Assembly (NCBI GenBank): GCA_002868865.1
Contig: PKUC01000065.1
Coordinates: 1-55,552 of the forward strand
Length of the DNA stretch: 55,552 nucleotides
DNA from: Desulfuromonas sp.
GTDB taxonomy: Bacteria; Desulfobacterota; Desulfuromonadia; Desulfuromonadales; Geopsychrobacteraceae
Direction of reading: 5' to 3'
In this document: positions 12,863 through 34,832 of the stretch, in pieces
How positions within the stretch are numbered: the first letter of the stretch is position 1
How the letters are laid out: every line of letters begins with the position of its first letter
Notes under the pieces: generated by a model
The model's database searches: none
The model's input: the letters and a program-made list of their open reading frames with translations, nothing else
Told to the model about the DNA's origin: nothing
Program-made: the position numbers and the translations under genes

Positions 12863-15059
12863 TCTGCTCGCAGGGCTCAACGAGCCTCAGCGCCAGGCGG
12901 TACTGCACGCTGACGGGCCGCTGTTGATGCTGGCTGGAGCCGGATCGGGCAAAACCAGAGCACTGACCCACCGCATCGCCTACCTGATCCGCGAAGGGGG
13001 TGTCCCGCCGTGGCGTATTCTGGCGGTAACCTTTACCAACAAGGCTGCGGCGGAGATGCGCGAGCGGGTCGCCCAACTGTTGGGGGACGGCGACGCGCCC
13101 TGGGTGGCGACCTTTCATGCCAGCTGTGTGCGGATCCTGCGGCAGGAGGCTGAGCGGCTCGGCTTTACGCGGGCGTTCACCATCTACGACGACAGCGATC
13201 AGCTGCGGTTGTTGAAAGACGTCCTCAAGGAGCTGGGGATCAGTGAAAAGAGTCTCAAGCCCAGGGCCGCTGCGGTTTATATCGATCAGGCCAAAAACCG
13301 CGGGCAATTCCCGGAGCAGTTGGCGGATGACGATCAGCGGGATGATGTCGCGCTGCGCGTCTACGCCCAGTATCAGCAGCGCCTCAAGCAGGCCAACGCC
13401 CTCGATTTCGGGGATCTGCTGTTGTACGCCGTCCACCTGTTCGAGCAGCATCAGGACGTTCTGGAGGCCTACCGGCAGCGGTTTGCCCATATCCTCATCG
13501 ACGAGTTTCAGGATACCAACCAGATTCAGTACCGGCTGATTCAGTTGCTGGCCGGGTCGGGACAGACCCTGTGTGTTGTCGGTGACGATGACCAGTCGAT
13601 CTACGCCTGGCGGGGCGCAGAAATTGGTAACATTCTCGGCTTCGAAGCCGATTTCCCTGGTGCAAAGGTCATCCGTCTGGAGCAGAACTACCGCTCCACA
13701 GAGACGATCCTGGCCGCCGCAGGCGAGGTGGTCGCGAAAAACCGTGGCCGCAAAGGCAAGACCCTCTGGACCGATAACCCGGCGGGTGAGCCGGTGACCC
13801 TCGAAGTGCTCGGTGATGACCTGGAGGAGGCCCGTTTTGTCGTCGGTGAGATCGCGCGGCTGCAGCACGGCGGAGCCCGTCTGAGGGATGTGGCGATTTT
13901 TTATCGCACCAACGCGCAGTCGCGCTCCTTTGAAGAGGCGCTGGTACGCGAACGATTACCTTATGTGATGGTCGGTGGTCTGAAGTTCTTTGCCCGCATG
14001 GAGGTCAAGGACATCCTCGCCTATCTGCGGACCTTGGCCAACCCGGCCGACAGCCTCTCGGCGCGGCGGATTATCAACGTGCCAGCGCGCGGTATCGGTG
14101 CGGTGACGGTGGGTAAAATCGCGGCGTTTGAAACTGAAGCGGGCGGTTTTTATCCCGCCTGCGAACGCGCCCTGGAACGAGGCGCTCTGCGGGGCATGGC
14201 GGCGAAGAAGGTGTCGGGATTCGTGACCCTGATGAAATCCTTCGAGGCGTTGATGGCGCGCTTGCCCTATCCGCAGCTGACGGCAGAGATCATCGAGAAA
14301 ACCGGGTACGCCGCCGGTTTGCGGACAGAGGACACCAACGAGGCGCAGGACAGGCTGCAGAACCTCGAAGAACTCCTCAAGGGGATGGAGGAGCACCGCA
14401 GCGAAGAAGCAACCCTGCAGGATTACCTTGAGCAGATCGCTCTGGTGACCGATCTCGATGCCTACGACAGCTCGGAGGACCGGGTCACCCTGATGACCCT
14501 TCATGCTGCCAAAGGGCTTGAGTTCCCGGTCGTTTTTATGGCCGGGATGGAAGAAGGCCTGTTTCCCCACTCCCGAAGTCAGGGAGACGACGCCGCGCTG
14601 GAAGAAGAGCGCCGGCTCTGTTATGTCGGCATGACCCGGGCGATGGATAAGCTCTACCTGACCAGGGCGCGGCGGCGCAGGGTGTATGGCACCTATCAAT
14701 TCAATCCGCAGAGCCGGTTTCTGGGGGAGATTCCGGCTCATCTGCTCGGTGAGGACGAGGTCGTCGTGGTTGAAGAGCAAAAATCCCATAATTTGGCCGG
14801 TCTTTTTGCCGGGACAGAGCCACAGGTCGATGATGACCATGAAACCGTTGCGGCAGCACCCGACTACGACGACGTGGAGATCGTGCCCGACGCCACCGAA
14901 GGGATTCAGCTGGGGATGCAGGTGCGACACGTCAAGTTCGGGGTCGGTAAGGTCTGCCGTCTCGAAGGGCGGGGCGACAGTCAGAAGGTGACGATTTACT
15001 TCAGCCGATTCGGATCGAAGAAACTGCTGCTGAAGTTTGCCGGACTGGAACCGGCCTAG
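12855..15059 (+). CDS. PcrA/UvrD-type 3'-5' DNA helicase
   Basis: A 734-residue superfamily 1A helicase. The motifs are in order: GAGSGKT (I), VTFTNKAAAEMRERV (Ia), ILIDEFQDTN (II), GDDDQSIYAWRGA (III), RLEQNYRS (IV), VTLMTLHAAKGLEFPVVF (V) and EERRLCYVGMTRA (VI). A flexible linker then leads to a C-terminal Tudor-like module (GMQVRHVKFGVGKVCRLEG), as in PcrA/UvrD proteins that bind RNA polymerase. Roles: nucleotide excision and mismatch repair, replication-fork clearing. Of two in-frame ATGs, 12855 lies 7 nt after the TTGGAGG region and is preferred over 12849. The gene overlaps the end of the ClC gene by 8 nt, so translation may be coupled. Confidence 0.93.
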   Translation: MSDLLAGLNEPQRQAVLHADGPLLMLAGAGSGKTRALTHRIAYLIREGGVPPWRILAVTFTNKAAAEMRERVAQLLGDGDAPWVATFHASCVRILRQEAERLGFTRAFTIYDDSDQLRLLKDVLKELGISEKSLKPRAAAVYIDQAKNRGQFPEQLADDDQRDDVALRVYAQYQQRLKQANALDFGDLLLYAVHLFEQHQDVLEAYRQRFAHILIDEFQDTNQIQYRLIQLLAGSGQTLCVVGDDDQSIYAWRGAEIGNILGFEADFPGAKVIRLEQNYRSTETILAAAGEVVAKNRGRKGKTLWTDNPAGEPVTLEVLGDDLEEARFVVGEIARLQHGGARLRDVAIFYRTNAQSRSFEEALVRERLPYVMVGGLKFFARMEVKDILAYLRTLANPADSLSARRIINVPARGIGAVTVGKIAAFETEAGGFYPACERALERGALRGMAAKKVSGFVTLMKSFEALMARLPYPQLTAEIIEKTGYAAGLRTEDTNEAQDRLQNLEELLKGMEEHRSEEATLQDYLEQIALVTDLDAYDSSEDRVTLMTLHAAKGLEFPVVFMAGMEEGLFPHSRSQGDDAALEEERRLCYVGMTRAMDKLYLTRARRRRVYGTYQFNPQSRFLGEIPAHLLGEDEVVVVEEQKSHNLAGLFAGTEPQVDDDHETVAAAPDYDDVEIVPDATEGIQLGMQVRHVKFGVGKVCRLEGRGDSQKVTIYFSRFGSKKLLLKFAGLEPA

Positions 15060-25400: not shown

Positions 25401-25625
25401 CGGCGACTGGAAAACAAGCTACGCCTGATTCACGATCAGTCGATCAGCCAGCTCTCCGGAGACGCCAAAGCACTGCGCCGTGTCGCCTTGAGCCTGGGCT
25501 ATCCGGCGCGGCCAAAGCCTCCGGAGACCCTTTTTCTTGAAGAATACCGCCGTACCACGGAATCGATTCGTGCACTTTTTGCATTTTATCTCGAGGGGAA
25601 AAATGACCACGAAGGTGACCGCTGA
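22443..25625 (+). CDS. glnE: Bifunctional glutamine synthetase adenylyltransferase/adenylyl-removing enzyme
   Basis: A 1060-residue GlnE that adenylylates glutamine synthetase when nitrogen is plentiful and de-adenylylates it under limitation, responding to PII proteins. It has two nucleotidyltransferase domains with the G-G-x-E-x4-S-D-x-D metal motif: GGNELNFSSDIDLIY near residue 240 (deadenylase half) and GGLELAYHSDLDIIFIY near 765 (adenylylase half). Each is followed by the conserved RLRP(D/S)GN(N/Q)G block and a GRGGI/L-DIEF block. It is longer than the E. coli protein (946 residues), mainly in the helical N-terminal and linking regions. It overlaps the next gene by one base (TGATG), so the two are translationally linked. 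Confidence 0.96.
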   Translation: MSAEKIAIEDVRAALMQETNAQLVSLLKGLQLKVVERSATNLRLLHDHLQDVTLLADILDDARTSADADAALNFLERCMGSIDPQEFRAVLNTAARRRQLLTVLGGSAFLAGLFCRDGDCFNRLFLQQRIDCPSSEADMITALRQRVDPTAPFEALKRELRVFKREQILRIGSRDLCGMAALEEVTAELSSLASAALQVAYEVCSVLLQKDYGEPLQQTDEGQKPAAFCVLGMGKFGGNELNFSSDIDLIYCYSSPQGMTTGGDREKDGIELHRYFVKLAELLTRALGQVTEDGFVFRVDTRLRPDGNNGDLAVSISAAEIYYESWGQSWERAAMLKARPVAGCLELGEELLHRLEPFVYRRYLDFGMIEDIQIMKQKINLSLGRKQEGDNNLKLGRGGIREIEFFIQALQLVNAGKKPHLRERNSLQALELLCQDGLISSDEKEQLVQAYRFLRTVEHRIQIVQERQTHSLPTKEDDLLVLARRCGFAGCEEFLAELERLRTAVHALFNELFHAAETEADDVRPEVTFVLDVESDPDLVKDVLEENGFGNPDAAYDALRFLRGSGPDYRLTERGSRCLERLAPLMMTALLDSPSPDQALNNLERFLQALRAKTSFFSLLVENPKIVSLLLSLFGSSQLLSRIFIQRPELLDTMVSSSYATSFKPQNRMAEELTEQMALATDYEQQLDVLRRYRNEEFLRIALNDLQGQIGQTEGTVQLSWLANVCLAQAVRMGVAELTVRYGMPSQAGGTVSDLPFAIVGMGKLGGLELAYHSDLDIIFIYEGEGQTEAVTGTDPERFRSINNRDYYARLAQRIITVLTLVTREGFVYKIDTRLRPSGNQGPLVTSLHAFEDYHQQSAQPWERQALTKALVVCAPDSFGRRCQAIIEQLTFDRPLPPHLQQEIFRLRGRMEREIAREGSDHFNIKTGRGGLVDIEFLTQYLQLLHAGNHLELRSQNTLRVLKQLENQELLTPHDSGVLIEGYKFLRRLENKLRLIHDQSISQLSGDAKALRRVALSLGYPARPKPPETLFLEEYRRTTESIRALFAFYLEGKNDHEGDR

Positions 25626-27520
25626 TGGGTAAACGGGTCATGATCATCGATGATGATCGGGGGATACGGAATTTTTTACAGAAGGCGCTCGAGGCCAAAG
25701 GGTTTAAAGTCGAGGCGGCCGATCGCGGGGCGGTGGGCTTACAGAAGATGCTCGGCGGCCATTATGATCTGGCGTTGATCGATATCAATATGCCGCAGAT
25801 CTCCGGTCCGGCGATCTGCAGTGCACTGCGCCGTCAGAAGATTACGCGGAACATGCCGGTGGTGATGATGACCGCCATGTTCCATAATCTCGATCAGATC
25901 GAGCAGGCCAAAAAGGACTACGGTGCCACCGAGTTTCTGCTCAAACCGTTCAAGGTCGAAGATCTCTACTGGCTGCTTGATACCCTGTTTGCAGATGGGG
26001 CCTCAACGGACGGCGGTGCGTCTCAGGAAGGGCAGCTGTCCGAACATTTTCTGCCGCTGTTGTTGAATCAACTCTACAGCAAACGGGCGACCGGCCTGCT
26101 GACCCTGAACCACCATGACAAGAAAAAGGTGGTCTATTTCAAGGGGGGCTACCCGATCTTTGCCCGCTCCAATATCCTTGCTGAATGTCTGGGACAGATG
26201 CTGATTCGTGAAGGGCTGATCAGTAAGGAGGATTGTGAACAATCGATCGAGGGCAGCAACCGCTCCGGCCGTCTGCAGGGAACCGTGCTGATCGAAATGG
26301 GGCTGCTCTCGCCCGAAGAACTCCACGAAGCCCTGACCCGTCAGGTGACGGAAAAGCTGCTGTCGGCGTTTGCCTGGACCGAAGGGACCTACGGCTTTGC
26401 CCCCGCTAAAAGCTTCAAAAAGACTGTCACCGAGATCGAACTGTCCCCCGCCGCGTTGATCCTTCAGGGGATCACTCAGCACTGGTCACGGGAGCGCCTC
26501 GACCGTTTTCTGCAGCCACACTGCAGTGATTTTCTGGTGCAATCCCGAAACCCTCTGTTCCGTTTTCAGGAGATGGGGCTCAGTCGGCGCGGCGAGGATG
26601 TCCTGGAAGAGTGCCTTGGAGATCTGACCCTGGAGCAGCTTCTGAAACGATTTCCCCTGTCTCGGCTGGAAGTGCAGCAGGTGGTTGCCGCGCTGTTGCT
26701 TTCGGGGATGATTGTCGCCAGCAGCACCATCGTTACCCTTGATCAACAGGGACAGGAGAAGCGGAGACGGGAGCAACCGCAGGATGAGGCACTGCGCAAA
26801 GAGATCCTTGCCAGTTACGATCGGATTCTCAACGCGGACTACTATGCGGCACTGGGGGTCGGTCGTCAGTGTGACGCCGAAGAGGTGCGCCGGGCCTATT
26901 ATCAGCTGGTCAAGGAGTATCACCCCGACCGCTATATCGGCTATGGCCTGTCACAGGACATGGAGCACAAGGTCAGCGAGATTTTCCAGTACTTGACCCA
27001 TGCCTATTCGGTGTTGAGCGATCCCGCCGCCAGCTCCAGCTATTTTGATGAGCTGGTGAACGGTCCGCGACAGACGGTTGATGTCAAACAGGTTATCGCT
27101 GCTGAGACAGCGTACCAGAAGGGTAAGGCTCAGCTTATGATCCGTCATTACCGGGAGGCCGCAGAGTTTCTGTCGCAAGCGGTGGCGCTGAGTCCGAAAG
27201 AACCGGAATATTTGACCCAGTATGCCTGGGCGGTGTACAAATCAGAGCCTGACCAGCAGGAGGCGAAGAACCGCGCCCTTGAAATGCTGATCAGCTCACG
27301 CGAGTTGAACCCGCGCAGCGAGGACACCTATCTGTACCTCGGATATGTCTATCGTGCCCTTAACAAAGAACGTCAATCGCAGAAATCCTTTGAGCTTGCG
27401 GTGCAGGTCAATCCGGCCTGCAAGGACGCCCTACGGGAGCTGCGTCTGATCAATCTGCGTAAAGAAAATGCCTCTGACGGCGGGATCTTACAGCGTTTTT
27501 TTAAATCGAAGAAATCATAA
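25625..27520 (+). CDS. Receiver - DUF4388 (PATAN) - J-domain - TPR protein
   Basis: A 631-residue multidomain protein. Residues 1-120 are a receiver (MIIDDDRG, Asp53 in ALIDINMPQISG). Residues about 138-240 form a DUF4388/PATAN-type domain (RATGLLTLNHHDKKKVVYFKGGYPIFARS). Residues about 245-390 are helical. Residues about 403-475 are a DnaJ-type J domain (DYYAALGVGRQCDAEEVRRAYYQLVKEYHPDRY) with the HPD motif that stimulates DnaK ATPase. Residues about 490-625 carry TPR-like repeats. So phosphorylation may control recruitment of Hsp70 to a client held by the TPR part; that is inference. Its ATG overlaps the glnE stop (TGATG), making translational coupling likely. Confidence 0.85.
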   Translation: MGKRVMIIDDDRGIRNFLQKALEAKGFKVEAADRGAVGLQKMLGGHYDLALIDINMPQISGPAICSALRRQKITRNMPVVMMTAMFHNLDQIEQAKKDYGATEFLLKPFKVEDLYWLLDTLFADGASTDGGASQEGQLSEHFLPLLLNQLYSKRATGLLTLNHHDKKKVVYFKGGYPIFARSNILAECLGQMLIREGLISKEDCEQSIEGSNRSGRLQGTVLIEMGLLSPEELHEALTRQVTEKLLSAFAWTEGTYGFAPAKSFKKTVTEIELSPAALILQGITQHWSRERLDRFLQPHCSDFLVQSRNPLFRFQEMGLSRRGEDVLEECLGDLTLEQLLKRFPLSRLEVQQVVAALLLSGMIVASSTIVTLDQQGQEKRRREQPQDEALRKEILASYDRILNADYYAALGVGRQCDAEEVRRAYYQLVKEYHPDRYIGYGLSQDMEHKVSEIFQYLTHAYSVLSDPAASSSYFDELVNGPRQTVDVKQVIAAETAYQKGKAQLMIRHYREAAEFLSQAVALSPKEPEYLTQYAWAVYKSEPDQQEAKNRALEMLISSRELNPRSEDTYLYLGYVYRALNKERQSQKSFELAVQVNPACKDALRELRLINLRKENASDGGILQRFFKSKKS

Positions 27521-27546
27521 GCCATCGCGATGAAATGGAGATTGAA

Positions 27547-27624
27547 ATGAAAAAATTGATGCTGGTTGTTCTGGTTTTGTTGCCGATCCTTGCCGGTTGT
27601 TTGCCCTGCGTGCCCTGCCTGTAA
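27547..27624 (+). CDS. 25-residue lipoprotein-like peptide with Cys-rich tail
   Basis: A very short reading frame that I call from its signals: GGAG at 27537-27540, a 6-nt spacer, ATG, then a textbook lipoprotein signal peptide (MKKLM, a hydrophobic Val/Leu core, lipobox LAGC) followed by only seven residues (LPCVPCL) and TAA. The three cysteines have the spacing C-x2-C-x2-C, the first being the lipidation site. If processed, the mature product would be an 8-residue lipopeptide. It lies 26 nt after the J-domain gene and ends 21 nt before the convergent ttcA stop codon. It could be a genuine micro-lipoprotein or a truncated remnant of a longer lipoprotein. Confidence 0.55.
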   Translation: MKKLMLVVLVLLPILAGCLPCVPCL

Positions 27625-27645
27625 ACCGATAAAACGGTGCCGGGG

Positions 27646-28431
27646 TTACCGCTGCGGTGAGTAATCGAAGAGGCTGCGATCAAGCAGCTGGTGGGGGTGG
27701 ACGTTGCCTGCGGCTCCCAGCAGACTGCGGCGCAGGTGAGGGACCTCTGCTGACAGCCTTTCGATCAGCTGCTTGATCTGCTGGCGCTTCTGGTCCGGGG
27801 CCCCTTCAACGGGGCACGAGCAGCGGATAATCGGGTGGTTAGCCAGCTGGCTGTAGCTGCGGATCAACTCCTCCTCGACATAGATCATCGGCCTGATGAC
27901 GGTGTGCTGTCCGTTGTCGGCCTCAACTCTGGGGCTCATGGCTCCCAGGGAGCCGCTGTAAAACTGGTTGAGCAGCAGGGTTTCGATGACGTCGTCCATG
28001 TGGTGACCAAGGGCGATCTTGTTGCAGTTCAGTTCCGTCGCGGCGGTGTACAGCGCGCCGCGGCGCAACCGGGCACAGAACGCGCAATACGATGACCCGG
28101 GGCGCCGCTTTTCGGCGATAATCCTGTAGGCGGCCGTGCTCTTGATGTGGCAGGAGAAGCCAGCTTCTTGCAGGTACTCACGCACCAGATCGTTGCGGTA
28201 GCCGGTGAATCCGGAGTCGATGTTGACCGGCACCAGTGTGAACGTAACCGGCGCTTTTCTGCGCAATATCTCCAGCACCTGCAGCAGGGTGTACGAATCC
28301 TTCCCCCCCGACATACCGACCGCGATCCGGTCGCCGTTTTCGATCAGGTTGAAATCACCGATCGCTCTGCCGGTCGCTTTGATGATTTTGGCACAGAGTG
28401 CATCCCGCTGTTTTTCGTCTGCTGTCAGCAT
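27646..28431 (-). CDS. ttcA: TtcA-type tRNA thiolation enzyme
   Basis: A 261-residue PP-loop ATPase that converts cytidine 32 of certain tRNAs to 2-thiocytidine. The P-loop SGGKDS is at residues 41-46. The iron-sulfur-binding CxxC is Cys116-Cys119 (SYCAFCARLRRGALY), with the partner cysteine at 204 or 206 (RCSCPVEG), and the HHMDD block is at 143-147. This set distinguishes TtcA from TilS and MnmA. It is slightly shorter than the E. coli protein. It lies 21 nt downstream of the RND transporter gene on the same strand and may be the last gene of that transcript, although its job is unrelated to efflux. Confidence 0.88.
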   Translation of the reverse strand: MLTADEKQRDALCAKIIKATGRAIGDFNLIENGDRIAVGMSGGKDSYTLLQVLEILRRKAPVTFTLVPVNIDSGFTGYRNDLVREYLQEAGFSCHIKSTAAYRIIAEKRRPGSSYCAFCARLRRGALYTAATELNCNKIALGHHMDDVIETLLLNQFYSGSLGAMSPRVEADNGQHTVIRPMIYVEEELIRSYSQLANHPIIRCSCPVEGAPDQKRQQIKQLIERLSAEVPHLRRSLLGAAGNVHPHQLLDRSLFDYSPQR

Positions 28432-28452: not shown

Positions 28453-31400
28453 TCAGTGGGTTTCAACGTGATCGGCATGGTGCTCCCGTAGACCGAACAG
28501 CCCTCTGATATCTTCCAGGATCAGATAGAGCGCCGGGATCAACAGCAGAATAATACCGGTAGCGAACAGAATGCCAAAGCCCAGACTGATTGCCATCGGG
28601 ATCAGAAACTGCGCCTGAACGCTGGTTTCGAGGATCATCGGCACCAGCCCGAAGAATGTGGTCAGCGAAGTCAGAAGGATCGGGCGAAACCGTCGTGTGC
28701 CCGCTTCAAGGAGGGCCTCGTAGGGCGCAATCCCCTGTCGGCGGTTGCTGTTGGTGCGGTCGATGAGCAGCAATGAGTCGTTGACGACGACTCCGGACAG
28801 GGCAACGAGACCGAACATGCTCAGCAGGCTCAAGTTAAAGCCCATCAGCAGATGTCCGAGGACGGCACCGATCATACCGAAGGGTATGGCGGACATGATC
28901 AGCAGCGGCTGACTGTAGCTGCGAAAGGGGATGGCTAGCAGCACAAAGATGGCGACCAGCGCGAACTTGAATCCTTCCATCATGCTTCCCATCGATTCGC
29001 GACGTTCCTTCTGCTCCCCTTCCATGTTAAAGGACAACCCCGGAAAGTCGATCGCCAGTTGTGGAAGAAGGCCCTGCTTCAAGTCGGACAGAATCTCAGA
29101 GGCGTTCGATTTTCGATCATCGACACTGGCGGTGACGTTGATGACCCGCTTGCGGTCGGTGCGACTGATCGATGAAAAGCCACGCCCTTCGACCACTCGG
29201 GCGGCCTGCAGCAGCGGGATTTCATTGCCGGCCGGGGTTCTGATCCGCATGTTTTCAAAGTTCCACAGCTTTTCGCGACTCTCTTCGGGGTAGCGCACCA
29301 TAACCCGCACTTCATTGCGGCCACGCTGCAGGCGCAGCGCTTCAGCGCCGTAGAAGGCCGACCGGACCTGCCGGCCGAGCTCGAGTTCGGTGATGCCCAA
29401 GGCCCGCCCCTGCGGAGTGAGGTGCAGCTTGATCTCCTTGTTGCCCAGAGCATAGGTGTCTTCGATGTCTCCAACTCCGGGATAGCTTTGTAGGGCGTCT
29501 TTCAGCCGGGCGGAGGCTTTATCGAGGACGGCAAAGTCCTCGTGGGCGAGCTGAACGTCGATGTTGGCCCCCATCCGCATCAGATTTGAGCTGAAGGTCA
29601 GGGAATCGACGCCGGGGAGGTCTCCAACCTTCTCTCGCCAGCGTTCAGCGACCTCTTTGGCCGGGATGTTGCGGTCCTCGCTCTTGGTCATGAACATAGC
29701 CACGGTACCGAGGTGGGTCCCGCTGCTGGTGCGTCCTCCACCGGGACCGCCCCCGGCGATCGTGCCGCCGGTCACGGAATAGATGTTGCGCAGAATCGAG
29801 TCCCCCTCGGCACGGAGCGCATCATACTCCTCGGCGGTTTCCAGGGACTTTTCAAGGAGCAGATCGACTACACGGGCGGTGTCGTCTATCGAGGCACCAC
29901 GATTCATCTGCAGGGCCGCGGTAATACGATCCCCGTCGACTTCGGGCATGAAGGTGAATTTCACCACCCCGCCCTTGACGATCCCAAGGGTGAGCAGCAG
30001 CGCAGCGATGCCCACGGCCAGTGATACATAGCGATAGTTCAGGTTCAGTTTCAGCAGGCGACGGTAGGGACCGTTGACGAACCGCTCCAGTCCACGGGAG
30101 AAAAATCCACGCACCGTTTCGATCTTTTGCAGCAGGCGCCCGGGACGTTTGTTCTGTTTGCCGAGGGTGAGGTGGGCCGGCAGAACCAGCAGCGACTCCA
30201 GCAGCGACATCAGCAGCAGGGTGATGACGATGATGGGGATCACCTTGATGAACTTGCCCATCATGCCGGCGACAAAGACCAGCGGCAGAAAGGCGGCGAC
30301 GGTGGTCATGATCGAAAAGGTGACCGGCACCGCAACTTCCAACGCTCCATCGATGGCCGCCCGCAGGTAGGGCTTGCCGAGCTGTCGATGTTCATAGATG
30401 TTTTCGCCGACGACGATGGCGTCGTCAACCACGATACCGAGGGCGAGGATAAAGGCGAACAGGGAGATCATGTTGATCGAAACCCCGAGTAGTGGCATCA
30501 AAAACAGGGTGCCGAAGAACGAGATCGGGATGCCGAGCATGACCCACAGCGCAAGTCGGATCTCCAGGAACAGGCCGAGGACGATAATGACGAGCGTCAG
30601 GCCGATCATGGCGTTCTTTTGGAGCAGATTCATGCGGCTTTCGAAAATTTCGGAGGTGTCGTTCCACACCGCCAGGTTCAGGCTGTCGGGCAGGTGCAGA
30701 GATTTTTGCGCGACGTAGTTTCTGATCTGCTCCGACATTTCGATCGGCTTCTGCTCGCCGATGCGGAACACTTTGACCATCGCGGCGGGCATGCCGTCAA
30801 AGCGGGCATACTGTTCGCTGTCTTCAAAGGCGTCTCGTACCGTGGCGATGTCGCCGAGGGTGACCCGGGTGCCGTCGGTGGCGCTGAGGATGACGATGTC
30901 GGCATATTCCGGGCCCCAGTAACGGCGCTCTTTGGTCCGCAGCAGGATCTCTCCGCCGTCGGTTTTGACCGATCCGCCCGGCAGGTCGAGAGAAGCCAGC
31001 CGGATCTTGCTGGCAACCTGCTCGAGGGTCAGATTGTAGCGACGCAGGTTTTCTTCGCTGATGTCCACCGAGATCTCAAAATCACGCACGCCACCCAGAT
31101 CGATCTGAGAAATATTCGGAAGTTCGAGCAGTTCATTACGGATGGTTTCAGCCTGTTCGCGCAGGCTCCGTTCGGAGACATCACCGTAGATGACCACCGA
31201 AATGACCTCGCGGCGGTTCAACAGTTTGCTGACCACCGGTTTTTCAGCGTCTTCCGGAAAGGTGGTGATCCGGTCGATCTCGCTTTTGATATCCTGGAGG
31301 ATCAGATCGGGGTCCTGATCGGTGTAGATCTCGGCACTGACGGTTCCGATCCCTTCCGATGCGCTCGATTTGATCTGTTTGATGCCATCGACCGCGCTGA

Positions 31401-31614
31401 GACTTTCTTCGATCTTCAGCAGGATGCCGTCTTCAACCTCTTCGGGGCCGGCACCGGGGTAGGCGACCGCGACCTGAATCCAGTCGAGGGAGACTTCAGG
31501 GAAGACCTCTTGGGTGATCTTCGGTGCCATCATCAGGCCGCCGAGGATCAGGACCAGCATCAGCAGGTTGGCGGCCACATGATTTTTGGCCATCCAGCGG
31601 ATTGCACTCATCAT
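28453..31614 (-). CDS. RND-family efflux transporter, inner membrane pump
   Basis: A 1053-residue RND permease of the AcrB/HAE type. It has a membrane helix at residues about 14-32, a large periplasmic loop (PGAGPEEVEDGIL..., GIKQIKSSASEG), a central membrane block with ALGIVVDDAIVVGENIYEH, in which two adjacent Asp residues of helix 4 are expected to carry protons, a second periplasmic loop, and a final membrane block (PFGMIGAVLGHLLMGFNLSLLSMFGLVALSGVVVNDSLLLID). It would use the proton gradient to expel drugs, solvents or bile-like compounds through the adaptor and the outer membrane channel encoded just upstream. The start overlaps the adaptor stop by 4 nt. Confidence 0.94.
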   Translation of the reverse strand: MMSAIRWMAKNHVAANLLMLVLILGGLMMAPKITQEVFPEVSLDWIQVAVAYPGAGPEEVEDGILLKIEESLSAVDGIKQIKSSASEGIGTVSAEIYTDQDPDLILQDIKSEIDRITTFPEDAEKPVVSKLLNRREVISVVIYGDVSERSLREQAETIRNELLELPNISQIDLGGVRDFEISVDISEENLRRYNLTLEQVASKIRLASLDLPGGSVKTDGGEILLRTKERRYWGPEYADIVILSATDGTRVTLGDIATVRDAFEDSEQYARFDGMPAAMVKVFRIGEQKPIEMSEQIRNYVAQKSLHLPDSLNLAVWNDTSEIFESRMNLLQKNAMIGLTLVIIVLGLFLEIRLALWVMLGIPISFFGTLFLMPLLGVSINMISLFAFILALGIVVDDAIVVGENIYEHRQLGKPYLRAAIDGALEVAVPVTFSIMTTVAAFLPLVFVAGMMGKFIKVIPIIVITLLLMSLLESLLVLPAHLTLGKQNKRPGRLLQKIETVRGFFSRGLERFVNGPYRRLLKLNLNYRYVSLAVGIAALLLTLGIVKGGVVKFTFMPEVDGDRITAALQMNRGASIDDTARVVDLLLEKSLETAEEYDALRAEGDSILRNIYSVTGGTIAGGGPGGGRTSSGTHLGTVAMFMTKSEDRNIPAKEVAERWREKVGDLPGVDSLTFSSNLMRMGANIDVQLAHEDFAVLDKASARLKDALQSYPGVGDIEDTYALGNKEIKLHLTPQGRALGITELELGRQVRSAFYGAEALRLQRGRNEVRVMVRYPEESREKLWNFENMRIRTPAGNEIPLLQAARVVEGRGFSSISRTDRKRVINVTASVDDRKSNASEILSDLKQGLLPQLAIDFPGLSFNMEGEQKERRESMGSMMEGFKFALVAIFVLLAIPFRSYSQPLLIMSAIPFGMIGAVLGHLLMGFNLSLLSMFGLVALSGVVVNDSLLLIDRTNSNRRQGIAPYEALLEAGTRRFRPILLTSLTTFFGLVPMILETSVQAQFLIPMAISLGFGILFATGIILLLIPALYLILEDIRGLFGLREHHADHVETH

Positions 31615-32795
31615 CGTGTCTGCTCCTGCGCCATCGGGCGGAGCAGAAGGCCGGTGACCGCCCCGTCCAGCGTCGTCAGGATCATCCGTTCACCAGCGCT
31701 TAGTCCCTCGTCGATCAGCAGGGTGTCCTGCTCACGACGCAGCACATGAACAGGACGGATCTGAAGACGGTCTTCGAGATCAGCCAGCCAGACGCTGTAG
31801 TTTTCGCGCAGTGCACTGCGGGGAATACTGACCACCTCTGGCAGGTGGGTGCCGTGCAGGGCGACATCGACAAACAGACCGACCGACAGATCAAGCTGTC
31901 CTTGCGGGGTGCTCCGGTTGCCGTCGGCGGTGTCCACCGCGACTATGATCGTCGCCATATGGCTGGCAGGATCGATTTCGCCCGCCGAGCGGACGATCTC
32001 ACCGGTCCACGTCAAACGCTCTGATCCGGATGTCAGGCTGATTGTGGCCCGACTGCCGGTGTGGGTATCTCCGGCCCGCGGGATATCGAGCCACTGCAGT
32101 TCGCTCAGTGGCAGGGGCACCTTTATCTCCGCCTGTGCGGTACCGGCTAGGGTGGCGACCGCAGTCCCCGCCCGCAGGTACTGCCCTGGGTCGACCTGCT
32201 CTGTGCGGATCCGGCAGTCGAACGGTGCATACAGGGTGGTCCGTTGCAGATTGAGCTGCGCTTTCTTCAGCCCGGCGCGGGCCGCGTCGAGATTGGCCTT
32301 CTCCTTCTTCAGCTGCGGGGCGCGCAGCACCAGTGGGCTAGGTTCCCCTTTGTCGTCCATGTTCAGCAACTGCCACTCTTCAAGGGCGAGTTTGGATTGT
32401 TGCTCCTCTGTCTGCAGGGCGACCTCGGCCTGGGCGAGGGTCGCTTGTGCTTGTTCAACCGCGAGACGGTAATCACGCTGATCGATTTCGAGCAGTTTTT
32501 CGCCCTTACGGAAAAAACCGCCGGTGACCAATTGCGGCGACAGCCAGTCGATCTTGCCGCTGACCTCCGGGACCAGAGAAATCTCCATGCCGGGGGCGAC
32601 CGTGCCGGTGGCATGGACCGTGACCTGATGCGGCTGAGTTGCGATCGTCAGAACCTCGACCAGCAGGCCACGTTGGGGTTGTGCCTGTTTTTTCGGGGGG
32701 GTACTGAGCCCGGTCAGGCTTTTAAAGCCGATGACGCCGATGACCAGGATGATCAGCGGCAGAATGATCTTGAGGAGCAGATTTTTTTTACTCAT
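31611..32795 (-). CDS. RND efflux periplasmic adaptor (membrane fusion protein)
   Basis: A 394-residue HlyD/AcrA-family adaptor. An N-terminal membrane anchor (LLLKIILPLIILVIGVIGF) is not followed by a lipobox. Then come a lipoyl-type half motif (VTVHATGTVAPGMEISLVPEVSGKID), an alpha hairpin of about 100 residues with heptads (about 115-185), the second lipoyl half (LYAPFDCRIRTEQVDPGQYLRAGTAVATLAG) and beta-barrel and membrane-proximal domains. It links the inner membrane pump to the TolC-type channel. It overlaps the pump gene by 4 nt and the outer membrane factor gene by 8 nt, so the three are tightly coupled. Confidence 0.92.
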   Translation of the reverse strand: MSKKNLLLKIILPLIILVIGVIGFKSLTGLSTPPKKQAQPQRGLLVEVLTIATQPHQVTVHATGTVAPGMEISLVPEVSGKIDWLSPQLVTGGFFRKGEKLLEIDQRDYRLAVEQAQATLAQAEVALQTEEQQSKLALEEWQLLNMDDKGEPSPLVLRAPQLKKEKANLDAARAGLKKAQLNLQRTTLYAPFDCRIRTEQVDPGQYLRAGTAVATLAGTAQAEIKVPLPLSELQWLDIPRAGDTHTGSRATISLTSGSERLTWTGEIVRSAGEIDPASHMATIIVAVDTADGNRSTPQGQLDLSVGLFVDVALHGTHLPEVVSIPRSALRENYSVWLADLEDRLQIRPVHVLRREQDTLLIDEGLSAGERMILTTLDGAVTGLLLRPMAQEQTR

Positions 32796-34203
32796 GGGAA
32801 TCAGCCTTTTTCGTGATGAGGCGTTGGGTTATATGGTCGTTCATCCACTGTCCGCCCAGAGCGCGGGCCAGGGTGATCCGTTCGGTCAAGAGCTGCTGAC
32901 GCGCGGAGAGCAGCTGGCTGTGGGTGTCAAAGTTGCTGCGCTGTGCTACCAGCACCGGCAGGTAGTCGGTCAGTCCCGAACGATATCGTTGCCGGGCCAG
33001 ACGCAGGGTGGCTTCCGTCATCCGCTTGGTGGCAGCCAGTTGGGTGATGCGCAGTTCTGTGGTGCGGTTGCGTGTCAGAGCGTCTTCAACTTCACGGAAG
33101 GCGATAAGCACCTGCTGCCGATAGCGCGAGACGGCCTGATCGAGCGCAGCGCGGCTGCGTGTGACTTCGGCTTTGCGACGACCGGCGTCGAGGAGCGGAA
33201 CGGTCAACTGACCGAGAAAGTTCCAGAAGTTTCCTTCGATCAGCCCGCTGGTGACTTCCTGGTGACTGCGTCCGTACGAACCGATCAGGTTGATGCGAGG
33301 AAAACGCTCGGCAATCGCTGTGGCGATGCGGGCGTCGGCCGCAGCTACACGATGGAGCTGCGCCTGCAGGTCGGGTCGCTGTGCGAGCAGATCAGCAGGG
33401 AGTCCGGTCGGGAACATGTCGGGGACCGGTGGCAGAATATGGAGGTCCCCGGCGCTTTGCCGGTCGGGGTAGCGCCCCAGCAGTACGGCGATGGCATGTT
33501 CGCTGATTGCCAGCGCACTTTCGCTGGCATGCCGGTTGGCCCGAACCTGGCTCAAGCTCTGGCGTGCCTGATAGACATCGATGGAGCCGACCAGACCTTT
33601 CTTGTAGCGGTTCTCTACCAGCGACAGGGTCTCTTTAAAGGACTCGATAGTCTGGTCGGCCAAGGCCAGTTGAGCGCGCTGTCCAATGACCTGATAGTAG
33701 AGCGAGGCCAATTGAGCAGACAGGCTCAGGTAGAGGGTTTTGGTGTCTTCGATGCTGGCACTGACGTCCTGTGCCGCTGCGTCGTGCTGACTGGCGAGCC
33801 TGTTCCACAGATCGATCTCAAACGCTGCCGAGGCGGCGACCTGCCAGCTGTCCGTTGTCGCGTCCCCGACCAGTTGGGGTTGCTGTGAGCGGCCCTTTTG
33901 TCCTTCCAAATTCAGGGTCGGATAACGGCTGCTGTTGCTGGCGCTGAGGAGTGCTCGGGATTGCTCCAGTCTGGCGAAGGCCTGTTTGAGCTCGAGATTT
34001 CCGGCAAACAGCTCATCCATCAAGCGGTTTAAGTGTGGGTCGTTAAAGCTCAGCCACCAGGAGTCCGGTGAAGCGGATGTGGCCGAAGACGACTGTTCGA
34101 TGTACTGGTCGGGCGGCTCCGGTGCAATCAGCTCGTGGGGGGTGTGGAGGCTGCAGGCTGTTAACAGGACAAGGCAGAGACAGTGTGTGGCAAGCTTCAG
34201 CAT
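32788..34203 (-). CDS. Outer membrane efflux lipoprotein, TolC/NodT type
   Basis: A 471-residue outer membrane factor. The chosen ATG at 34203 follows GGAGG and starts a lipoprotein signal (LCLVLLTAC, lipidated Cys17); an upstream in-frame extension lies within tetR and has no such signal. The mature part carries two copies of the OMF repeat of long helices (DPHLNRLMDELFAGNLELKQAFARLEQSRALL, and a second copy in the C-terminal half) that form the periplasmic tunnel as a trimer. The start overlaps the tetR stop by 7 nt. The end reads through the start of the adaptor gene. Confidence 0.92.
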   Translation of the reverse strand: MLKLATHCLCLVLLTACSLHTPHELIAPEPPDQYIEQSSSATSASPDSWWLSFNDPHLNRLMDELFAGNLELKQAFARLEQSRALLSASNSSRYPTLNLEGQKGRSQQPQLVGDATTDSWQVAASAAFEIDLWNRLASQHDAAAQDVSASIEDTKTLYLSLSAQLASLYYQVIGQRAQLALADQTIESFKETLSLVENRYKKGLVGSIDVYQARQSLSQVRANRHASESALAISEHAIAVLLGRYPDRQSAGDLHILPPVPDMFPTGLPADLLAQRPDLQAQLHRVAAADARIATAIAERFPRINLIGSYGRSHQEVTSGLIEGNFWNFLGQLTVPLLDAGRRKAEVTRSRAALDQAVSRYRQQVLIAFREVEDALTRNRTTELRITQLAATKRMTEATLRLARQRYRSGLTDYLPVLVAQRSNFDTHSQLLSARQQLLTERITLARALGGQWMNDHITQRLITKKADSHE

Positions 34204-34832
34204 GGGGCCTCCAGTCCGGCGCAGGCAAAGCGAATCATCTCTTCGGCCTGTGGTGTATCGGTCAAGGGTTGGGGGATGCCGGGGATCGATATTTGGGGGC
34301 GGGCACCAGCGCACATGACGTGGCTCATTGCTCCTAGGACGAAATGGAGTCGCGTCAGCAAGATTTCTTCCGCCAGCTCGGGCCGGGCCTTTTTTAGCCC
34401 TTCGTAGAGGAGGATAAACAGGGGCATGACCTGTTGGATAAAGCAGTTACGCACGGTCTCGTCCGGTTCGTTCATTGCTCGACCAATCAGGGCAATAAAT
34501 TCGACCGCCCCGGGACCTTCATTACGAAAAGCAAGAGTCGGCTCGATAAAGGCACGCAGCAAGTCGGTCGTGCGCGGCCGACGTTGTTCGGTGGCAGCAG
34601 TGGAAAGGATCTTTTCTATCCGGTCGGCACGTCGTTGGTTGAGTGGCTTCAGGCGCCGCTCAATGACCGCCTTGAGCAGTCCTTCCTTGGAACCGAAGTG
34701 ATAATTGACCGCCGCGAGATTGGCGTCGGCCGTGGTGGTGATTGTTCGCAGTGAGGTGAAGTGGTAGCCCTCTTTGGCGAACAGCTGTTCGGCGGCATTG
34801 AGAATGCGGCTTTTGGTATCGATCTGTGTCAT
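34197..34832 (-). CDS. TetR/AcrR-family repressor of the efflux operon
   Basis: A 211-residue regulator. Residues 8-55 hold the TetR helix-turn-helix (RILNAAEQLFAKEGYHFTSLRTITTTADANLAAVNYHFGSKEGLL, which is typical of the family). The rest is an all-helical ligand-binding and dimerisation domain. It is the first gene of the tetR-OMF-adaptor-RND operon, and a palindrome lies between the -35 and -10 of its promoter. The simplest model is autorepression of the whole operon, lifted when the repressor binds a pump substrate. The ligand is unknown. Confidence 0.9.
   Translation of the reverse strand: MTQIDTKSRILNAAEQLFAKEGYHFTSLRTITTTADANLAAVNYHFGSKEGLLKAVIERRLKPLNQRRADRIEKILSTAATEQRRPRTTDLLRAFIEPTLAFRNEGPGAVEFIALIGRAMNEPDETVRNCFIQQVMPLFILLYEGLKKARPELAEEILLTRLHFVLGAMSHVMCAGARPQISIPGIPQPLTDTPQAEEMIRFACAGLEAPC

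Follow-up and report, generated by a model that had tools for sequence, protein, structure and literature searches.

A lineage-restricted gene for a predicted lipoprotein with an eight-residue mature part in the family of a Desulfuromonas species

Organization of the locus

The window, i.e. the whole stretch of 55,552 nucleotides analysed here, contains a very short open reading frame (micro-ORF) between the gene designated RR-J and a convergent gene of a TtcA-type tRNA 2-thiocytidine synthetase (Table 1). RR-J is the constant neighbour of the micro-ORF and is present in all 44 genomes of the family, while ttcA is a neighbour lying outside the micro-ORF unit. The translation of the micro-ORF reads MKKLMLVVLVLLPILAGCLPCVPCL, 25 residues followed by the stop. 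The clear ribosome-binding site and the full lipobox signal peptide pointed out in the initial annotation are both present: the last A of TGGAGA (27541) ends six bases before the ATG at 27547, and the lipobox I-L-A-G/C (the slash marks the predicted cleavage site) is followed by seven residues, LPCVPCL, two of them cysteines, in exactly the C-x2-C-x2-C spacing that had been described. The predicted lipidation cysteine is Cys1 of the mature part (Cys18 of the whole peptide), and Cys4 and Cys7 would be free. In a relative from the same genus, ATGGAGGTTTGGATG is likewise arranged before the start as a Shine-Dalgarno sequence. An alternative in-frame ATG, twelve bases upstream at 27535, would add MEIE to the product; since no evident Shine-Dalgarno sequence precedes it, the start at 27547 is preferred.

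Table 1. Features at the micro-ORF locus (positions in the window)
Feature	Position	Strand	Basis or remark
Upstream gene RR-J (receiver, DUF4388, J domain and TPR-like part; 631 aa)	25625..27520	+	Pfam
Shine-Dalgarno-like TGGAGA	27536..27541	+	Sequence
Micro-ORF of the predicted micro-lipoprotein	27547..27624	+	25 codons and TAA; syntenic homologues in 8 other genomes
Predicted signal peptide MKKLMLVVLVLLPILAG with lipobox LAG/C	27547..27597	+	Sequence and PS00013-like expression
Predicted mature octapeptide CLPCVPCL, the conserved part	27598..27621	+	9/9 invariance and codon-position pattern
Conserved stop codon	27622..27624	+	Stop at the same codon in 9/9
TtcA-type tRNA 2-thiocytidine synthetase, convergent	27646..28431	-	NCBIfam NF007972, 315 bits (cut-off 272)

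No promoter-like site was found within 27300-27900, and therefore the micro-ORF is most likely carried on the RR-J mRNA. In the carriers from genus g5, a Shine-Dalgarno sequence (AAGGAG or AAGGAA) lies inside the final codons of RR-J, with the start of the micro-ORF within a few bases of the RR-J stop; in G066 the start overlaps this stop and there is no strong Shine-Dalgarno sequence, and G005 would use GTG as its start. Such start and stop anatomy fits, short of proof, translational coupling with RR-J, which is probably how the micro-ORF is expressed. AAGGAG also stands at the end of RR-J in G007, a genome without the micro-ORF, and for the window itself coupling is weakly supported, as 26 bases separate the RR-J stop from the micro-ORF start.

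Several further observations concern the surroundings. In the window, positions 28453-34832 hold genes labelled by eye as RND-type efflux genes (transporter, adaptor and outer-membrane factor) with a TetR-like regulator. Some of the loci L066-L072 carry SpoIIE-like and PilZ-like genes (labels from the translations) convergent to RR-J, between RR-J and ttcA; this pair is missing at that place in the genus of the window. In three genomes of g4 (G032, G004 and G015; loci L031, L029 and L037) the first 150 bases directly after RR-J are occupied by short tandem repeats (GATTCT-like, TTCCGACTCCAG-like and GGTTGAACTTCC-like), which might encode a repetitive C-terminus of a convergent gene. The RR-J gene match of G024 (L022) contains one in-frame TGA.

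Conservation at the site and distribution

The bases after the RR-J stop were read in all 44 family genomes (600 bases in 43 of them and 213 in G034, where the contig ends), and the micro-ORF was found directly behind RR-J in nine: G000 (the window's own), G001, G005, G012, G020, G027, G030, G036 and G066. The carriers make up 2/2 genomes of genus g1, 6/9 of g5 and 1/10 of g7, with none in the 23 others. A search for the same peptide in related genomes has thus returned same-site homologues in eight genomes besides that of the window, and the lack of conservation which the initial annotation held to speak against the gene was not encountered. When the single sequence was searched against 60 relatives, matches with E<=1 occurred in 14 genomes, at the site in eight (window's own included) and elsewhere in six.

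In the RR-J tree, which comprises 43 of the 44 genomes (G002 was left out and G036 is partial), all nine carriers fall within one clade of 21 genomes (g1, g5 and g7) with support 1.0, and the micro-ORF is absent from the 22 genomes outside that clade. Twelve of the 21 clade genomes are devoid of it as well; being present in only nine members of its own clade, it should be regarded as dispensable, not essential. The simplest account would be ancestral presence with several losses, because g1, g5 and G066 share the same site. Almost no half-conserved version is found at this site in the other 35 genomes. The one suggestive relic is GCLPSLP in G025, near the right distance after RR-J, a score reached by 7 of 4000 shuffles with 35 genomes tested, so that its origin as a decayed copy is suggestive only. 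A putative relic in G022 was not significant (284/4000 shuffles), and the gapped local-alignment version of the relic test does not discriminate, as it gave similar p values at unrelated-looking sites (G009, G013 and G026).

Specificity of the tail and blind scans

The tail pattern, when searched in 277 genomes of the class, was matched in nine, which are the same nine carriers, always at the site, with no match of the reversed control. A pattern narrower at one codon was found at seven places in 84,980 species genomes, all of them beside an RR-J gene; by our own estimate, which assumes uniform base composition, about 1-2 chance matches were to be expected in such a set, and none was seen off site. 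A profile built from the nine sequences retrieved the nine carriers from 136 genomes of the order with E values from 2e-11 to 2.5e-7. The next best match (1.5e-4) is to a 288-codon frame, of which only the signal part is covered, and many weaker ones follow below it, as expected for lipoprotein signal peptides. Neither the profile nor the single-sequence search, which do not demand the exact tail, revealed further members. In the genomes searched, the micro-lipoprotein gene is restricted to one lineage.

Some other candidates were considered and rejected. A looser tail pattern matched six of 395 phylum genomes (the window's own and five more), against two for the reversed control; of the five, two end in TGG and not in a stop (L073 and L076), and inspection by eye showed no lipoprotein signal peptide in the frame of any of them. 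The single match on a viral contig is antisense to a 1128-codon frame and is devoid of an ATG, GTG or TTG start in its own frame. The second match in the window's own genome (L020, E 0.67) lacks both an ATG start and a charged n-region ahead of its cysteine.

The window was also scanned for ORFs of 18-45 residues with a charged n-region, a hydrophobic core, a lipobox and a short tail. The micro-ORF and a second site, at 14267 on the minus strand, were returned, and only the micro-ORF combines ATG with a Shine-Dalgarno sequence; 40 second-order Markov copies of the window contained 0.125 such ORFs on average, none of them with both ATG and a Shine-Dalgarno sequence. A tail-blind scan of 434,501 bases of loci, a set that is overlapping and redundant and was mostly chosen for the RR-J/micro-ORF site, returned only members of the micro-ORF family.

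Selection on the mature tail

The tails of the nine homologues conform to GC[LIV]PC[VI]PCL-stop, with the glycine, three cysteines, two prolines, leucine and the stop invariant in 9/9, so that seven of the nine positions from the glycine onward do not vary; since the nine were recognised by the tail itself, the apparent invariance of its residues is favoured by ascertainment, against which stands the near lack of half-conserved versions in the other 35 genomes. Along with the tail, the stop is conserved: eight genomes have TAA and one has TAG. Among the ten tail codons, stop included, the first position is variable in 2/10, the second in 0/10 and the third in 10/10, and over all pairs pN is 0.081 and pS 0.614 (pN/pS 0.13). 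The signal half, in contrast, varies in sequence and in length (whole peptides are of 22-31 residues) and keeps only its character, i.e. the charge at the start, the hydrophobic core and the lipobox. The difference between a variable signal half and a constrained tail points to selection on the mature octapeptide C[LIV]PC[VI]PCL. The micro-ORF is almost certainly a real coding gene, and the same-site conservation and the stop conserved with the tail bear out the micro-lipoprotein gene proposed in the initial annotation, lipidation itself being a prediction from sequence.

Lipoprotein features and comparison with known families

All nine homologues have K or R near the start, an uncharged hydrophobic core and the lipobox [LV][AGST]G/C, and satisfy a PS00013-like lipobox expression. 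The genome encodes signal peptidase II (LspA; PF01252 at G000:C60, 157.6 bits against a cut-off of 25). As the lipobox is complete in 9/9 and the LspA gene is present, the product is very probably exported, lipidated and cleaved. The 25-residue product matched no Pfam family and gave four weak NCBIfam matches (E 0.2-0.88), confined to the signal stretch, far below the cut-off and none of them entericidin, though curated family models have limited power for a product of this length. A literature search, whose coverage took in few subscription journals, found no description of such a peptide.

With the bacterial lipoproteins processed by Lgt, LspA and Lnt, the nine peptides share the charged n-region, the hydrophobic core and the lipobox; they differ in that the predicted mature part, known here from sequence, amounts to eight residues, and we know of no lipoprotein with a mature part as short as this. 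Entericidin-type and colicin-lysis lipoproteins are also very small, but their mature parts comprise roughly 20-30 residues, in contrast to the eight residues, without a Pfam match, of the micro-ORF product. The C-V/I-P-C before the last leucine has the Cys-x-Pro-Cys form, in common with the sites of thioredoxin and TlpA/ResA-type proteins and with synthetic Cys-x-x-Cys thioredoxin-mimetic peptides. Unlike these proteins, the micro-ORF product has no thioredoxin fold, which 25 residues cannot hold, and the resemblance extends over four residues and implies no family relation.

Possible function and alternative explanations

We suppose that the micro-ORF would be translated from the RR-J mRNA by reinitiation or coupling and that its product would be exported by the Sec system and receive its lipid on Cys18, with cleavage by signal peptidase II yielding acyl-Cys-Leu-Pro-Cys-Val-Pro-Cys-Leu. 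The tail, which has no charged side chain, would then present two free thiols in the Cys-x-Pro-Cys form on its lipid anchor and could act at the membrane face as a minimal membrane-tethered dithiol, exchanging disulfides or binding a soft metal ion; the octapeptides might perhaps act as a pair. The Cys-x-Pro-Cys arrangement is known from the active sites of thioredoxin-like proteins, and short peptides with Cys-x-x-Cys are able to exchange disulfides; for these reasons the tethered dithiol is our leading guess. It is also the least certain step of the proposal: taken alone, the dithiol or metal function of the tail is suggested by its sequence at somewhat below even odds, and no redox or metal partner was found nearby. 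To the proposal as a whole, i.e. a lineage-restricted micro-lipoprotein made by coupled translation, lipidated and serving as a membrane dithiol, we assign a probability of about 0.5.

The mature tail might instead bind a specific partner protein or the membrane, its cysteines being structural contacts, extra acylation sites or disulfide anchors. The proline, the leucine and the C-terminal stop are also invariant, as expected of a docking peptide whose carboxyl end is free, and the tail has no charged side chains. On the other hand, no candidate partner was found, and three regularly spaced cysteines, two of them free, exceed what docking needs; we consider this explanation possible but rather unlikely, and rank the dithiol role ahead of it.

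In a far less probable alternative, the product would be the signal-peptide half, set free as a short signalling peptide, with the tail serving maturation only. Enterococcal pheromones that arise from lipoprotein signal peptides are described (PMC7074142 and PMC7117660), and their precursors likewise send a short peptide along the lipoprotein export route. This precedent comes, however, from Gram-positive bacteria, and in the micro-ORF family it is the tail that is conserved (invariant at 7/9 positions), not the signal peptide, which is variable in length and sequence.

Still less credible is a non-coding reading, in which the conserved bases form an RNA or DNA element (a terminator or an antisense site) or the 3' end of the convergent gene. 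The micro-ORF does sit between convergent genes, the convergent gene terminates at the micro-ORF stop in some g5 genomes, and in G001 (L005:703-1563) a TtcA-like frame continues antisense through most of the micro-ORF, while the TtcA of the window stops before it. Nevertheless, the third positions of the sense frame are all variable and the second positions are not variable at all, and the convergent neighbour differs between genera. No consensus RNA structure, terminator-like site or Rfam match over threshold was found for the micro-ORF; a match to Rfam RT-15 (18.9 bits, E 0.11; gathering score 82), which does not cover the ORF, was taken as chance.

The 5' remnant of a longer lipoprotein gene, which the initial annotation had named as the finding that would overturn the gene, was looked for and not found, and such a remnant, or a chance ORF, retains a negligible probability: the ORF is short and most of the family is without it, but stop and site are identical in nine genomes, synonymous changes predominate and the blind scans yielded no other such ORF.

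What is new in the predicted micro-lipoprotein is the size of its mature part and the strict conservation of that part. The genome comparison shows selection on a predicted lipoprotein with an eight-residue mature part that is nearly all motif. With 78 bases the gene is small by the standards of routine gene calling, so that other lineages may hold similar genes that have escaped notice. If the peptide is lipidated, the lower limit of lipoprotein size would be pushed down, and a simple object would be at hand for asking what a peptide without a fold does on a membrane. We would put forward only tentatively, as a rather doubtful extension, that the ribosomally made, lipid-anchored octapeptide is a minimal membrane-tethered thiol cofactor, whose two free cysteines in the Cys-x-Pro-Cys form, held on a diacylglyceryl anchor, may carry out redox or metal chemistry at the face of the membrane in the absence of any protein fold.
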